A stretch of 33,779 nt of DNA, from assembly GCA_902568425.1 (NCBI GenBank), contig CACFQM010000010.1:1-33779 (forward strand). The letters run 5' to 3'. The DNA comes from an uncultured Pelagibacteraceae bacterium (GTDB lineage: Bacteria; Pseudomonadota; Alphaproteobacteria; Pelagibacterales; Pelagibacteraceae). Each line of letters begins with the position of its first letter. The stretch's first letter is position 1. The notes under the pieces are model-generated. The model was given only the letters and a program-made list of their open reading frames with translations, had not been told where the DNA came from and made no database searches. The position numbers were made by a program, and so were the translations under genes. Shown in pieces: positions 25,005-31,453 of the stretch.

Positions 25005-25678
25005 ACTTTTCCAAAATTTCTTGTTACATTTTTAAAATGATTCAATATCTTAATAAAATCATTTACTTTAAAGTCAGGCCATAATTTATTAATAAAGTAT
25101 ATTTCAGAATAAGACAATTGCCATAGTAAAAAATTACTCAATCTTTTCTTACCACCAGTTCTTATTAAAAGATCTGGATCAGGGATGCCTTTTGTGTATA
25201 AATTTTTTTCAAAATCTTTAATCGTGAATTTAGTTTTGTTTTTTTTTATGTTTTTGAAGGCATTTATAATTTCATTTTTTGATCCATAATTTATTGCCAA
25301 GTTTACTCTTATATTATTACACTTTTTTGTTATTTTTTTACTATTAATTAAACATTTCTTAATTTTTTTTGGAAGTGTATTTATATTACCTAGAATATCA
25401 AGTTTAACACCGTTTTTCTTTAAATTGATAATTTCTTTGTTAAAATAATTTTCAATCAATTTAAAAAGAAATTTTATTTCTTTTTTCGGTCTTTTCCAAT
25501 TTTCTGTAGAAAAAGTATAAAAAGTTAATATGGGTATCTTCTTTTTTATGGAGTATTTTACAATTTTTTGAATTACCTCTACTCCTTTTATATGTCCATA
25601 ATTTCTTGATTTACCCCTTTTTCTCCCCCATCTACCATTTCCATCCATGATAATGGCAATATGGTTTACTCTGTTCAT
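25001..25678 (-). CDS. uppS: Undecaprenyl diphosphate synthase (cis-prenyltransferase)
   Basis: UppS elongates farnesyl diphosphate with isopentenyl units to the C55 lipid carrier used for peptidoglycan and O-antigen. The 225 residues contain HIAIIMDGNGRWGRKRG with the catalytic Asp, GHIKGVEVIQKIV, LTFYTFSTENWKRPKKEI and, near the C-terminus, DLLIRTGGKKRLSNFLLWQ followed by SEIYFINKLWPDF. The usual RTGGE is RTGGK here, a charge change in a conserved motif, while the later metal-binding Glu in SEIYF is kept. It is four bases into frr and overlaps cdsA by four. Confidence 0.95.
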   Translation of the reverse strand: MNRVNHIAIIMDGNGRWGRKRGKSRNYGHIKGVEVIQKIVKYSIKKKIPILTFYTFSTENWKRPKKEIKFLFKLIENYFNKEIINLKKNGVKLDILGNINTLPKKIKKCLINSKKITKKCNNIRVNLAINYGSKNEIINAFKNIKKNKTKFTIKDFEKNLYTKGIPDPDLLIRTGGKKRLSNFLLWQLSYSEIYFINKLWPDFKVNDFIKILNHFKNVTRNFGKV

Positions 25679-26232
25679 AAAGTTAGAATTTCTTTTTCCT
25701 TTTCAGTTGAAATCTTATCAATTTTTTTAATATTTTCGTCTGTATTTTTTTGTATTTGGACTTCATAGTCTTTACTCTCGTCTTCACTTATTTTTTTTTC
25801 TTTAAGAAGTTTTTTTATATTGTCGTTACTTTCTCTTCTAATATTTCTAATAGAAACTTTTCCCTTTTCGACTAGGTTTTTTAAAACCTTTGTGAGCTCT
25901 TTTCTTCTTTCTTCTGTTAGCTGAGGTATGTGAATTCTCAGGGTTTGACCATCAATTTGCGGATTAATTCCTAAATTTGATTTCTGTATTTCAGCATCAA
26001 CCGCTTTAATATTATTTTTATCCCAAACCTGAATTGAAATAGTCCTTGGTTCAGGCACTGTAATAGTTGCAATTTGATTAATCGGCATTTTTTGTCCATA
26101 AACATCAATTCTTATTAAATCTAACATTGAAGGGTTTGCTCGACCCGTTCTCAATGTGCTTAGATCTTTTTGAAATGAAGCTATTGATTTATTCATTTTT
26201 TGTTGTAATTCTTTCAAGTCAAAATTTTCCAT
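25675..26232 (-). CDS. frr: Ribosome recycling factor
   Basis: RRF splits post-termination ribosomes together with EF-G. The 185 residues match the family length. Motifs include LSTLRTGRANPSMLD (tip of the long-helix domain), YGQKMPINQIATITVPEPRT, LGINPQIDGQTLRIHIPQLT with EERRKEL, and RNIRRESNDNIKKLLKEKKI with SEDESKDYE. It lies two bases after tsf and overlaps uppS by four bases. pyrH, usually between tsf and frr, is missing here. Confidence 0.97.
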   Translation of the reverse strand: MENFDLKELQQKMNKSIASFQKDLSTLRTGRANPSMLDLIRIDVYGQKMPINQIATITVPEPRTISIQVWDKNNIKAVDAEIQKSNLGINPQIDGQTLRIHIPQLTEERRKELTKVLKNLVEKGKVSIRNIRRESNDNIKKLLKEKKISEDESKDYEVQIQKNTDENIKKIDKISTEKEKEILTL

Positions 26233-26234
26233 AT

Positions 26235-27101
26235 TTAATCTATGCCCTCTCCTACTTTAAATCTTGCAAAATCTAGTACTTTAATTTCTTCTCCATTAGA
26301 ATATTCTTTTACAACTTGATTAACCTTCTTTTTAGTATCCATTATCCATACTTGATTGAGTAATGTATTATCTGAAATAAATTTTTTAATTTTTCCTGAA
26401 GAAATTTTTTCAATCATCTCTGTTGTTTTTCCACTGTTTTTAAGTTCTTCTTTTATTATTTCTAATTCTTTATCTAAAAGGACTTTGTTGATACCGCTTT
26501 CATCAATAGCTAAGGGAGATTGTGCAGCTATATGCATTGCTAGTTTTGAGCCTAAATCCTTCAAATCTTTTTTTGAATTTTTGCTAAGTTGAACAATAGA
26601 TACGACTTTTCCTACATTTTTTTCTAATGAATTATGAACGTAAGAAAAATTAAGTCCATTATTTTCAAAAAACTTAGCTCTTCGTAATGTAATTTTTTCT
26701 CCCATTTTTGATATAAGTGCAATTAAATTTTCGTCTACGGTCTTCTGATTTTTCATTTTACTAGATTTTAAGTTTTGAATATTTGATTTGTTTATAAAAT
26801 TAAGTTCTGATATTTCTTTACAAAAATTTTTAAAGTCATTATTTTTAGCAACAAAATCAGTTTCACTGTTTATTTCAATAATAGACATGGAATTATCTTT
26901 CTCGTAAATTAAAGCTAAACCATCTGCCGCAACTCTACCCATCTTTTTTGAAGCTTTAGCAATTCCTTTTTTTCTTAAATATTCAATAGATTTTTCAATA
27001 TCACCATTATTTTCGTCTATTGCAATTTTACAATCTTTGAAACCTACACCGGTGATCTCTCTCAACTTTTTAATATTTTCTAAGTTCGGTTTATCAGACA
27101 T
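26235..27101 (-). CDS. tsf: Translation elongation factor Ts
   Basis: EF-Ts exchanges GDP for GTP on EF-Tu. The 288 residues begin with the UBA-like domain (IKKLREITGVGFKDCKIAID), followed by EKSIEYLRKKGIAKASKK and the TDFVAKNNDFKNF motif that contacts the EF-Tu nucleotide pocket. AMHIAAQSPLAI, with the conserved dimerisation-domain pattern, and a C-terminal ARFKVGEG complete it. It follows rpsB by 17 bases; no Shine-Dalgarno sequence is visible in that spacer. rpsB-tsf linkage is nearly universal in bacteria. Confidence 0.97.
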   Translation of the reverse strand: MSDKPNLENIKKLREITGVGFKDCKIAIDENNGDIEKSIEYLRKKGIAKASKKMGRVAADGLALIYEKDNSMSIIEINSETDFVAKNNDFKNFCKEISELNFINKSNIQNLKSSKMKNQKTVDENLIALISKMGEKITLRRAKFFENNGLNFSYVHNSLEKNVGKVVSIVQLSKNSKKDLKDLGSKLAMHIAAQSPLAIDESGINKVLLDKELEIIKEELKNSGKTTEMIEKISSGKIKKFISDNTLLNQVWIMDTKKKVNQVVKEYSNGEEIKVLDFARFKVGEGID

Positions 27102-27118
27102 TATGATTTAATTTGCGA

Positions 27119-27922
27119 TTAGTTCTTTTTTTTTAAATCTTTATTTTCAACTTTTTTTTCTACGATTGTTGGTTTGCCATTTGGGACATCATTTTTATCC
27201 TTCAAAATTTTAGTTTCGGCAGTTTTTTTAGATATATACTTTTTTGCGTCTACAATTGTATCTTTCAGAATTTCACAGTATAAATTTATTGATCTTCTAG
27301 CATCATCGTTACCTGGTATTGGATGATTTATACCAGTAGGATCAGAATTAGAGTCCAAAATTGCCACTATGGGAATATTTAATTTTATAGCTTCTTTAAC
27401 AGCTATCGACTCAATATTTGTATCAATAATAAAAAGCATATTAGGAACTACTTTCATGTCTGCAATTCCACCTAATGATCTTTTTAATTTATCCTTTTCA
27501 GTAGTAAGTTTTAAAATTTCTTTTTTTGTAAATCCAATATCATCGTCTTGGGATAAATCTTTTTCTAATTTTTTTAATCTTCTAATTGAATTCTGTATGG
27601 TTTTCCAATTTGTAAGCATACCCCCAAGCCATCTATGATTTACATAAAATTGTTCTGTTTCGTTAGCCAGTTTTAAAACACTTTCCGATGCTTGTTTTTT
27701 AGTTGAAACAATAAGAATCTTTCCACCGCTTGATATACACTTGTGTACTTCTTGCATGGCCTCTTTTATTAAATTTACAGTTTTTGTGAGATCAATTATG
27801 TGAATTGAATTTTTTTCACCAAAAATAAACTTATTCATTTTTGGATTCCACCTAAGTGTTTTGTGTCCCAAGTGAACACCGGCTTCTAATAATTGTTTAA
27901 TTGTTACTTCTGGTATATTCAT
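27119..27922 (-). CDS. rpsB: 30S ribosomal protein S2
   Basis: S2 is a late-binding small-subunit protein. The 267 residues open IKQLLEAGVHLGHKTLRWNP, then FIFGEKNSIHIIDLTKTV, and contain VNHRWLGGMLTNWKT, PIVAILDSNSDPTGINHPIPGNDDA and RRSINLY, all hallmarks. A Lys-rich, low-complexity tail of about 35 residues (from about 232) extends beyond the core, as in several alphaproteobacteria. Upstream lies a GC-rich structured leader. The GGAGGA that might serve as Shine-Dalgarno is 14 bases from the ATG, farther than normal, which may relate to leader-based autoregulation by S2. Confidence 0.97.
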   Translation of the reverse strand: MNIPEVTIKQLLEAGVHLGHKTLRWNPKMNKFIFGEKNSIHIIDLTKTVNLIKEAMQEVHKCISSGGKILIVSTKKQASESVLKLANETEQFYVNHRWLGGMLTNWKTIQNSIRRLKKLEKDLSQDDDIGFTKKEILKLTTEKDKLKRSLGGIADMKVVPNMLFIIDTNIESIAVKEAIKLNIPIVAILDSNSDPTGINHPIPGNDDARRSINLYCEILKDTIVDAKKYISKKTAETKILKDKNDVPNGKPTIVEKKVENKDLKKKN

Positions 27923-27990
27923 AATTTTCCGGTTAATCCTCCACAGCTTTCCTTTCGGACCGGCGGGCTTTAACCCTTTGCTGTGTGCGT
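27923..27990 (-). promoter_or_regulatory. Structured rpsB leader, candidate S2 autoregulatory element with pseudoknot
   Basis: In RNA sense, CACAGC (27985-27980) can pair with GCUGUG (27947-27942). GGUUAA (27975-27970), inside that loop, can pair with UUAACC (27936-27931) downstream, forming a pseudoknot. A small hairpin UCC-GAAA-GGA (27959-27950) with a GNRA tetraloop lies between. The GGAGGA Shine-Dalgarno candidate (27942-27937) sits exactly at the junction of the two helices. The segment is far richer in G and C than its surroundings. A likely cis-regulatory RNA preceding the S2 gene was reported from intergenic screens of Candidatus Pelagibacter ubique; this is probably that element, though I cannot compare it to a model here. 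Confidence 0.78.
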
Positions 27991-28033: not shown

Positions 28034-31000
28034 TTAAAAACTTATTTTTTCAATGTATTCTTTATCTTTAATGTGATTAAAAGTACCAGCATTGAACTTT
28101 CTTAAATTTTTTAGTTCAAATGTGTAAATTTTTGAGGTTTCCTTAATTTTGATCTGAATTTTCGTATCGCCGTCTTCTCTAAGTAATTTCTGAAGTTCAT
28201 CTAATTTGGATTGATTTTTAATTTCAATCGTTACTTTATCATATTTTTTATTTGTAAAATCATTAAGGCTTACTAGTTTTCTTATGTTTATCCGCTTCGA
28301 AAAAGAGTCAGCACCAGCATTATCTTTTTGTAGTGTTAAAATAAATGAATTAGCAGTTTTAAGATTTTCTCTATTAGATACTAAGAGATCAGAAAACAAA
28401 AATAACTCAAACTCACTTTTTAAATCACTGAATTTAACTATTGCAAAAGGTGTTCCTTTAGAGCTTTTTTTCTCTTGAATAGACATTATTGTTCCTGCTA
28501 CAAGTGCTGAGCTTTCTTTTCCACCCACAAATTTGTTGAAACTAATCACATTCATTTTTTCAAAATAATCTCTATAAGCATTCAAGGGATGATCTGACAT
28601 ATAAAATCCAATTGATTGAAACTCATTCATAAGCATTTCATTGTTAGTCCATTTTTTAGTTTTGCTTGCTTTAAAAAACAAATCATTTTCGCTACTACTA
28701 TCTTCGAACAGATTATTTTGTTTACTTTGTTTTTCATCCCACAAGCTTTTATTTAATTGGATTATACTTGGTATTAAATTTAACAAGTTGCCTCTATTAC
28801 TTTCTAAATCATCAAAAGCTCCTGCTTTTGTTAAACCTTCTAATTGAAGTTTATTAATATCTTTTGGGTTTGATCTTTTGATAAAATCATTAAGTGATTT
28901 AAATTTTCCATTTTTTTCCCTCTCTTTTACAAGATTAGAAACAGCTTCTCTACCAACACTTTTAATGCCTGATAAAGCATAATAAATTTTATTTTTTTCA
29001 GATTTAAAATCTGCAAAGCATAAATTTATATTTGGTCTAATAATTTTAATTTTTAGTCTTTTCAATTCCTCTACAAATTCTCTCAACTTGTCGGTATTTG
29101 ATAATTCTGTAGACATCGTTGCAGCAATAAAATCCTCCTTATAATAATACTTTAAGTAAGCAGTTTGGTAAGCGATTAAAGCATAGGCGGCTGCATGACT
29201 TTTATTAAAACCGTATTCAGCAAATGGCATTATTTTTTTGAAAATAAAAGAGGCTATATCTTTACTAATATTATTATTAATTGCACCTTTTATAAACTTT
29301 TCCTCCTGTTTTTCTAATTCTTTTCTCTTCTTCTTTCCCATAGCTTTTCTTAAAATATCAGCCTCAGCTGCCGTAAATCCCGCAAGAGTCTGTGCGATTT
29401 GCATAACTTGTTCTTGATAAATTATTATTCCATAAGTTGGTTTAAGGATATTTTCTAAACTTTTGTGGATGTAATCAGGTTTTTTTATTCCATTCTTACA
29501 ATCATTATAAATTGGAATGTTGTTCATTGGGCCAGGTCTATAAAGAGCTACGAGCGCAACAATATCTTCAAATTGATTTGGTTTCATTTGTTTTAAAGCT
29601 GATCTAACACCTGAGCTTTCAAGTTGAAACAAACCTGTTGTTTCGCCACTTGATAACATTTTATATATTCCTGTGTCATCAAGAGGTATTTTTGAAATAT
29701 CTATTTCATTATTTTTACTTCTTATAATTTCAATAGTTTTATTAATTACTGTAAGTGTATTAAGCCCCAAAATATCAAACTTGACTAATCCGGAATTTTC
29801 CGAAGAGTGCATATCAAATTGAGTTGAAGGTAATAATAAATTTGAGCTACTATCTTTATAAAGCGGAACTTTTTCTGATAATTTTTCATCTGCAATTACT
29901 ACACCAGCCGCATGTGTTGCTAAATTTCTATTTAATCCCTCTAACTTTAATGATAACTCAATTAATTTTTTAACCTTGGGGTTGCTTTTTTCCTCCTCAG
30001 CAATTCTTGGTTCTCTCGCGATTGACTCTTTTAATGTTAAGGGCCTAGAGGGATCAAAAGGTATCATCTTGCATAATTTATCCACGTGTCCATATGGTAA
30101 ACCTAATACTCTTCCAATATCTCTTAATGCCATCCTGGCTTTGAGTTTTCCAAATGTAATTATGTGTGCAACTCCACCTTTATATTTAGATTTTAAATAT
30201 TTAAAAACTAAGTCTCTTTTTTCTTCACAAAAATCTATATCAAAATCTGGCATAGATATTCTATCTGGATTTAAAAATCTTTCAAAAATAAGTCCAAATT
30301 CAATTGGGTCTAAATCAGTAATGTCTAAAGAATACGCTACTAGTGAACCGGCCCCAGATCCTCTACCAGGACCTACAGGAATATTATTTTTTTTGGCCCA
30401 TTTTATGTAATCAGAAACAATTAAGAAATATCCTGAGTAGTTCATTTTATTTATAATTTCAATTTCATGGTTTAATCTTTCATAATAGATTTTTTCAATC
30501 TGCGCTTTGTCATAAGTGTTCTTTTTCTTCAAAATGAAGTTTTCAAGCCTATTTTTTAGTCCAGTTTTTGACAGTGATAGAAGTTCGTCATTTTCGCTTA
30601 AATTACTTGAAATTTTTATAGAGGGTAAATTTGGTTGTAATTTTTTTAACTTATAAGAAAATCTGAATGGAAAATTATAATTATTTTCAATAGCTTCTGG
30701 GATATCCTTATAAAGATTTTCTAATTCATCTGAATTTTTCATGAAATGTTGATCACTAAATTTTTTTCTATTTTTTTCATCTACATAGGTTTTTTGACCT
30801 ATACATAGTAAAGCATCATGAGCCTCAAACATATCTTTACTTATATAAAAAATCTCTTGAGATGCTATTAAAGGAACTTTAAATTTTTTTGAGAGACTGA
30901 GAAGATTATTTTCTAAATTTTTTTCTCCAGGATCATTATGTCTTTGAATTTCAAAATAGAATCTATCGTTAAATGTTTTAATCATTTTTGAAATAAACTC

Positions 31001-31453
31001 TTGTACTTCTTTTGTGTTATTTTTTTTAATTAGATTGTTTAATAAAGAGTCTAATCCACCGCTAGTTACAATTATATCTTCTGAGTGTAAAAAAAGTTCA
31101 TCCAAATTACAATGTGGTGGTAAATTTTCGTTTACATCAAGATAACTTTTTGACGACAATTTTGTTAAATTACTAAAACCTTTTTTAGTTTGAGCAAAAA
31201 TTGGAATTTTGCCCATAACTTTATTAAAAATAAAATTAATTTGAGTACCAATGATTGGTTGGGTACCTGACTTGCTAATTTCTTCTGAAAATTCAAGAGC
31301 ACCACACAAATTCAAACTATCGCTTAAACCAATAGCATGTATTTTTTTCTCCTTACAATATTTTCCTAAATCTGTTATTTTGATTGCGCCTTCGCAAATT
31401 GAATATTGGGTATGTATTTTAAAATGCGTGAATTTTTTTTTTTCATTTTCCAT
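28034..31453 (-). CDS. dnaE: DNA polymerase III alpha subunit
   Basis: Replicative polymerase subunit, full length at 1139 residues. The N-terminal PHP domain opens FTHFKIHTQYSICEGAIKI. The catalytic palm shows GPGRGSGAGSLVAY and PDFDIDFCEEKRD (around 395-405) with two of the catalytic aspartates; THAAGVVIADEKL, YRPGPMNNIP, YGIIIYQEQVMQIA and FNKSHAAAYALIAY are all typical of DnaE1. QNNLF near residue 911 fits the internal clamp-binding motif, and an OB-fold (ALVAGTIMSIQEKKSSKGTP) lies near the C-terminus. It is not DnaE2, since no imuA/imuB neighbours are present. The start overlaps lolD by 11 bases. Confidence 0.97.
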   Translation of the reverse strand: MENEKKKFTHFKIHTQYSICEGAIKITDLGKYCKEKKIHAIGLSDSLNLCGALEFSEEISKSGTQPIIGTQINFIFNKVMGKIPIFAQTKKGFSNLTKLSSKSYLDVNENLPPHCNLDELFLHSEDIIVTSGGLDSLLNNLIKKNNTKEVQEFISKMIKTFNDRFYFEIQRHNDPGEKNLENNLLSLSKKFKVPLIASQEIFYISKDMFEAHDALLCIGQKTYVDEKNRKKFSDQHFMKNSDELENLYKDIPEAIENNYNFPFRFSYKLKKLQPNLPSIKISSNLSENDELLSLSKTGLKNRLENFILKKKNTYDKAQIEKIYYERLNHEIEIINKMNYSGYFLIVSDYIKWAKKNNIPVGPGRGSGAGSLVAYSLDITDLDPIEFGLIFERFLNPDRISMPDFDIDFCEEKRDLVFKYLKSKYKGGVAHIITFGKLKARMALRDIGRVLGLPYGHVDKLCKMIPFDPSRPLTLKESIAREPRIAEEEKSNPKVKKLIELSLKLEGLNRNLATHAAGVVIADEKLSEKVPLYKDSSSNLLLPSTQFDMHSSENSGLVKFDILGLNTLTVINKTIEIIRSKNNEIDISKIPLDDTGIYKMLSSGETTGLFQLESSGVRSALKQMKPNQFEDIVALVALYRPGPMNNIPIYNDCKNGIKKPDYIHKSLENILKPTYGIIIYQEQVMQIAQTLAGFTAAEADILRKAMGKKKRKELEKQEEKFIKGAINNNISKDIASFIFKKIMPFAEYGFNKSHAAAYALIAYQTAYLKYYYKEDFIAATMSTELSNTDKLREFVEELKRLKIKIIRPNINLCFADFKSEKNKIYYALSGIKSVGREAVSNLVKEREKNGKFKSLNDFIKRSNPKDINKLQLEGLTKAGAFDDLESNRGNLLNLIPSIIQLNKSLWDEKQSKQNNLFEDSSSENDLFFKASKTKKWTNNEMLMNEFQSIGFYMSDHPLNAYRDYFEKMNVISFNKFVGGKESSALVAGTIMSIQEKKSSKGTPFAIVKFSDLKSEFELFLFSDLLVSNRENLKTANSFILTLQKDNAGADSFSKRINIRKLVSLNDFTNKKYDKVTIEIKNQSKLDELQKLLREDGDTKIQIKIKETSKIYTFELKNLRKFNAGTFNHIKDKEYIEKISF

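Follow-up and report, generated by a model that had tools for sequence, protein, structure and literature searches.

The window analysed here is a stretch of 33,779 nt from an uncultured Pelagibacteraceae bacterium (the source assembly comprises 756 kb and is 66% complete), and on its minus strand lies rpsB, encoding ribosomal protein S2 (uS2) of 267 aa (positions 27119–27922; Pfam PF00318, E 4.2e-87), whose start at the ATG 27922–27920 agrees with the conserved N-terminus of relatives. On the same strand, dnaE (28034–31453; DNA polymerase III alpha by Pfam) is located upstream, while tsf (26235–27101; EF-Ts by Pfam) and then frr (25675–26232; named from sequence only) follow rpsB. The leader under study, positions 27923–27990 of the minus strand, sits in the dnaE–rpsB gap immediately upstream of the S2 ORF. 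A search for a sigma-70-like promoter upstream of the leader gave no match, and transcription of the whole leader is an assumption here.

The original prediction described this leader as a pseudoknot of two crossing six-base complementarities, CACAGC/GCUGUG and GGUUAA/UUAACC, with a GGAGGA Shine-Dalgarno at the helix junction, its spacing or exposure being set by the fold. The coordinates confirmed that both complementarities exist in the window: CACAGC (27985–27980) and GCUGUG (27947–27942), as well as GGUUAA (27975–27970) and UUAACC (27936–27931), are present on the minus strand as first described, and GGAGGA (27942–27937) ends 14 nt before the rpsB ATG. Two crossing perfect 6-bp helices are rare: among 5000 dinucleotide shuffles of this 68-nt sequence, 21 contain them, which speaks for the predicted fold. 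The GNRA-capped hairpin claimed to be nested in the first helix was found as well, as a GAAA loop on CC/GG; a third pair, U-A, is possible, but its U is taken by the conserved pseudoknot described below. Folding of a 124-nt stretch by minimum free energy gave a non-significant z of −1.37, as expected of a program that handles no pseudoknots.

An Rfam search of the stretch at gathering thresholds returned no match, whereas at a permissive threshold two families matched exactly at the leader, namely RF01815 (rpsB; 27.9 bits, E 7.6e-4) and RF00127 (t44, a model built on gammaproteobacteria; 25.4 bits, E 0.0023), and no other family was found there below E 1. The comparison with Rfam suggested by the original prediction thus agreed in location and fell short in score, the gathering cut-offs being 40 bits for RF01815 and 44 bits for RF00127. 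RF01815 also matched the same place in 19 of 20 further SAR11 leaders (loci among L142–L181), all of them under 40 bits (24.9–38.5). Since the rpsB motif was described from P. ubique, where it is located in the dnaE–rpsB gap (Meyer 2009, PMC2704228), yet the threshold omits this clade, the sub-40 score was not taken as exclusion. This published motif is the cis-regulatory RNA before the S2 gene that the original prediction mentioned for Pelagibacter. In P. ubique, P1 is joined by a P2 of three pairs and a P3 of two, and five further pairs form a pseudoknot that links J2-3 to the strand following P1 (PMC2704228). The window leader shares with it the dnaE–rpsB gene order and position next to rpsB, a covarying P1, a short P2 and P3, and the five-pair J2-3/post-P1 pseudoknot, and departs from RF01815 in its score below the cut-off. 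It also resembles t44/tff, the E. coli rpsB-tsf leader (RF00127), in the bulged-A P1, the GUGGAGG sequence and a pseudoknot at the same place (GGGGU/ACCCC in E. coli), but differs from it in that t44/tff has a separate downstream Shine-Dalgarno, other pseudoknot bases, and a pseudoknot end 14–25 nt from the AUG across gammaproteobacteria. The expectation of a pseudoknotted S2-gene leader was therefore borne out by homology to both the Pelagibacter motif and the E. coli leader. We conclude, with a probability of roughly 85%, that the leader is in identity and structure the version of the proteobacterial rpsB (uS2) leader found in SAR11, with a CCGGU/ACCGG pseudoknot; the element and its pseudoknot are already published, and the window leader is another member.

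From its 5′-end, the leader begins with the 5′ strand of the outer P1 helix, CGC (27987–27989), as paired in Rfam RF01815, which is followed by the bulged A (27986) and by the inner P1 strand CACAGC (27980–27985). The 3′ strands of P1 are GCUGUG (27942–27947) and, for the outer helix, GAG (27939–27941), which lies inside GGAGGA and reads GAG, GUG, GCG or GAU in relatives. Covariation supported the inner helix, with changes on both sides at all 6 pairs across SAR11, other alphaproteobacteria and gammaproteobacteria, counts that lean towards structure in that the P1 5′ strand outside SAR11 was placed partly by complementarity. In the outer helix, the first pair is C-G in SAR11 family f1, other alphaproteobacteria and gammaproteobacteria, and becomes A-U in family f2 (these family labels, like the genus labels g2 and g4 below, are numbers internal to the analysis, and the window belongs to f1). 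The middle outer pair was unsupported, being paired in 42 of 129 rows and equalled by 297 of 500 shuffles. Within P1 lie the P2 hairpin GGGU-UAAA-GCCC (27965–27976), which contains GGUUAA (27970–27975), and the P3 hairpin CC-GAAA-GG (27951–27958), whose two base pairs under a GNRA loop match the two-pair P3 of P. ubique (PMC2704228). A P2 stem of at least 3 bp beside the pseudoknot 5′ strand was present in 103/103 SAR11 leaders; shuffles gave about 82, making it weak evidence alone. The pseudoknot itself is formed by CCGGU (27959–27963) at the P2–P3 junction and ACCGG (27929–27933), which ends 6 nt before the AUG.

The two candidate pseudoknot helices were compared across 103 distinct SAR11 leaders, 74 of family f1 and 29 of family f2, and a GGUUAA-type partner was counted wherever six consecutive bases of the P2 region could pair with the six at the UUAACC position. 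Under strict Watson-Crick pairing, GGUUAA/UUAACC was found in 1/74 f1 leaders, the window itself only, and in 0/29 f2 leaders (1/103 overall); allowing G-U, in 5/74 and 0/29 (5/103). By contrast, CCGGU/ACCGG was intact in 102/103. Loss of complementarity in close relatives, named beforehand as the outcome that would speak against the fold, was observed for GGUUAA/UUAACC within the same genus (L004, L005, L006, L035, L036 and L038), whereas CCGGU/ACCGG kept its pairing. L006, for instance, reads GGGCAAACGCCC and AAAACCGG, and the complementarity is gone; in L004, GAGCUUAUGCUC, it is likewise lost while P2 is compensated from GGG/CCC to GAG/CUC. Furthermore, GGUUAA/UUAACC is incompatible with the conserved pseudoknot and P2, because it shares the ACC of the former and breaks the hairpin of the latter, and its computed helix energy is −4.0 kcal/mol vs −6.6 kcal/mol for the conserved pseudoknot. 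The loss among relatives refutes GGUUAA/UUAACC as a conserved feature; despite its perfect pairing in the window, this helix as the second one, and with it a fold-positioned GGAGGA, is very improbable.

The conserved pseudoknot was paired in at least 128/129 distinct segment rows at every position across SAR11, other alphaproteobacteria and gammaproteobacteria, and its bases switch from CC..GG in alphaproteobacteria to GG..CC in gammaproteobacteria, that is GGGGU/ACCCC. Among 50 representative rows, 21 cells were changed on both sides vs 4.3 in shuffles, and pairing reached 100% vs at most 64% for slid partners, the 100% leaning towards structure in that the 5′ strand was found by the conserved GGU plus clade-specific preceding letters and 22 unanchored loci were omitted. 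Much of this covariation is one deep alpha-to-gamma change, and outlying lineages add a few more restored pairings that appear independent: UUUCGGU/ACCGAAA in L109, CUCUGGU/ACCAGAG in L198 and, in Zetaproteobacteria, GAUUGU/ACAAUC in L111 and AUUGU/ACAAU in L110.

Several outlying leaders were recorded separately. The Zetaproteobacteria L110 and L111 seem to keep the pseudoknot with other bases, and downstream of it, near the start, lies GGAGG; a perfect 5-bp pseudoknot partner was sought in the Zetaproteobacteria L101 and L106 and none was found. SAR116-like L088, L090, L092 and L097 keep CCGGU/ACCGG, and their GGNGG block after P1 has become AACAUUA. No recognisable rpsB motif was found directly upstream of rpsB in the alphaproteobacterial MAGs L087, L093 and L084; in L093 and L084, a GGCGU/GGAGG..UUAACCG block lies further upstream, perhaps owing to an insertion between leader and gene.

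The role first given to GGAGGA was examined in the same alignments. GGAGGA was expected to lie free between the two helices, but it overlaps inner P1 by one base and contributes more bases to outer P1. Its computed duplex with the anti-Shine-Dalgarno amounts to −9.3 kcal/mol, and the anti-Shine-Dalgarno is intact in the source genome, both of which favour ribosome binding at this site. However, the position reads GGUGG in 64/74 f1 and GGAUG in 25/29 f2 leaders, while GGAGG is retained in 21/21 gammaproteobacterial leaders though they have a separate Shine-Dalgarno downstream (AGAGGU in E. coli). Because the sequence is not kept in SAR11, the gammaproteobacterial site is separate and the block overlaps P1, GGAGGA serves the family as a structural motif and is no conserved Shine-Dalgarno. 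The 14 nt spacing was correct as described; the premise that it is too far for initiation carries less weight given the generally weak Shine-Dalgarno use of the source genome, in which a four-base core at −20 to −4 occurred in 50/204 sampled genes vs 23 in shuffled controls (the window plus L235–L247 of the same genome, with simple ORF calls at the first ATG). The suggested influence of the pseudoknot on ribosome access fails by the GGAGGA route and survives in another form, with the pseudoknot 3′ strand at the ribosome-binding site.

The distance from the pseudoknot to the AUG has a median of 8 nt in f1 and 9 nt in f2 vs 17 nt in other alphaproteobacteria and 18 nt in gammaproteobacteria; it ranges from 3 to 10 nt in SAR11, with 70/74 f1 leaders at 6–9 nt. 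An anti-Shine-Dalgarno match of at least 4 nt in this spacer was found in 5/74 f1 and 0/29 f2 leaders, vs 70/71 in other alphaproteobacteria and 21/21 in gammaproteobacteria. In 29/29 f2 leaders (L112–L141, L082, L086, L094), and likewise in both f1/g4 leaders, a GGAG overlaps the last bases of the pseudoknot 3′ strand, 5–8 nt from the AUG. In most leaders of f1, the family of the window, the pseudoknot strand contains no clear Shine-Dalgarno, which counts against direct occlusion of the start site; one f1/g2 leader, ACCGGAAAGGAUAAA, retains an intermediate arrangement. As judged by sequence comparison, the pseudoknot 3′ strand in SAR11 lies where the Shine-Dalgarno duplex would sit. No discussion of its position relative to the SAR11 start site was found in the accessible papers, the text of PMC2704228 having no mention of the Shine-Dalgarno, and no priority is claimed.

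In E. coli, rpsB-tsf is repressed by S2 through an operator that does not include the ribosome-binding site, by a mechanism described as unclear (PMC10931766); binding and repression by S2 have been shown in vivo for E. coli only, as cited in PMC2704228 and PMC10931766. While the comparison of sequences establishes the presence of the window leader, its structure by covariation and its position, homology with E. coli suggests that it serves as the operator through which S2 in excess represses its own message. Excess S2 would bind the leader and stabilise the CCGGU/ACCGG pseudoknot, the stabilised pseudoknot would directly bar the 30S subunit from the start site, and synthesis of S2 and EF-Ts would fall; to the occlusion step we give slightly less than an even chance. 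We infer that direct competition between the S2-stabilised pseudoknot and the ribosome is likely in SAR11, as the separate site is nearly always gone, the pseudoknot ends 3–10 nt from the AUG and the f2 GGAG overlaps it. With the GGAG in the f2 pseudoknot strand and nearly all f1 leaders lacking a separate site, SAR11 may even have fused S2 operator and ribosome-binding site, which are apart in E. coli, so that repression would switch directly between two states, a reading that we hold tentatively, a little on the doubtful side of even.

Occlusion is not required for repression, since E. coli represses with its ribosome-binding site outside the operator (PMC10931766), and SAR11 might do the same independently of where that site lies, the short spacing being only a by-product of genome streamlining and weak Shine-Dalgarno use. 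The sparse Shine-Dalgarno cores of the source genome fit this explanation, but streamlining alone does not predict that all 29 f2 leaders keep GGAG in the pseudoknot strand, nor does the explanation sit well with an f1 spacing so narrowly held, and we consider it somewhat unlikely. Alternatively, the pseudoknot may replace the Shine-Dalgarno duplex upstream of the AUG, with the 30S subunit continuing to bind and being held in place by S2. By analogy, such entrapment has parallels in E. coli, uS15 on rpsO and uS4 on the alpha operon. Trapping by uS4 on pseudoknots has been described (PMC10931766), and stalling would fit both where the pseudoknot strand lies and the loss of the separate Shine-Dalgarno in SAR11; the f2 GGAG, however, shares pseudoknot bases, which favours exclusion of the ribosome and makes stalling unlikely.

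A comparable layout near a start codon is known from the Pelagibacter SAM-V riboswitch, a compact pseudoknot proposed to occlude the Shine-Dalgarno (PMC6061858). The likeness to the SAR11 rpsB leader is a functional analogy only, as SAM-V binds SAM, is unrelated in sequence and fold, and precedes methionine genes.

Collectively, these results carry the lesson that a perfect complementarity within a single sequence may be the wrong helix, and they indicate that rpsB leaders from the SAR11 genomes tested fall below the Rfam gathering score for RF01815. S2 self-repression has been hard to explain because the E. coli ribosome-binding site lies outside the operator. The SAR11 leaders are a natural compact version in which the pseudoknot overlaps the start site, and because of this overlap, direct occlusion, stalling of the bound 30S subunit and remote repression predict different outcomes in SAR11.
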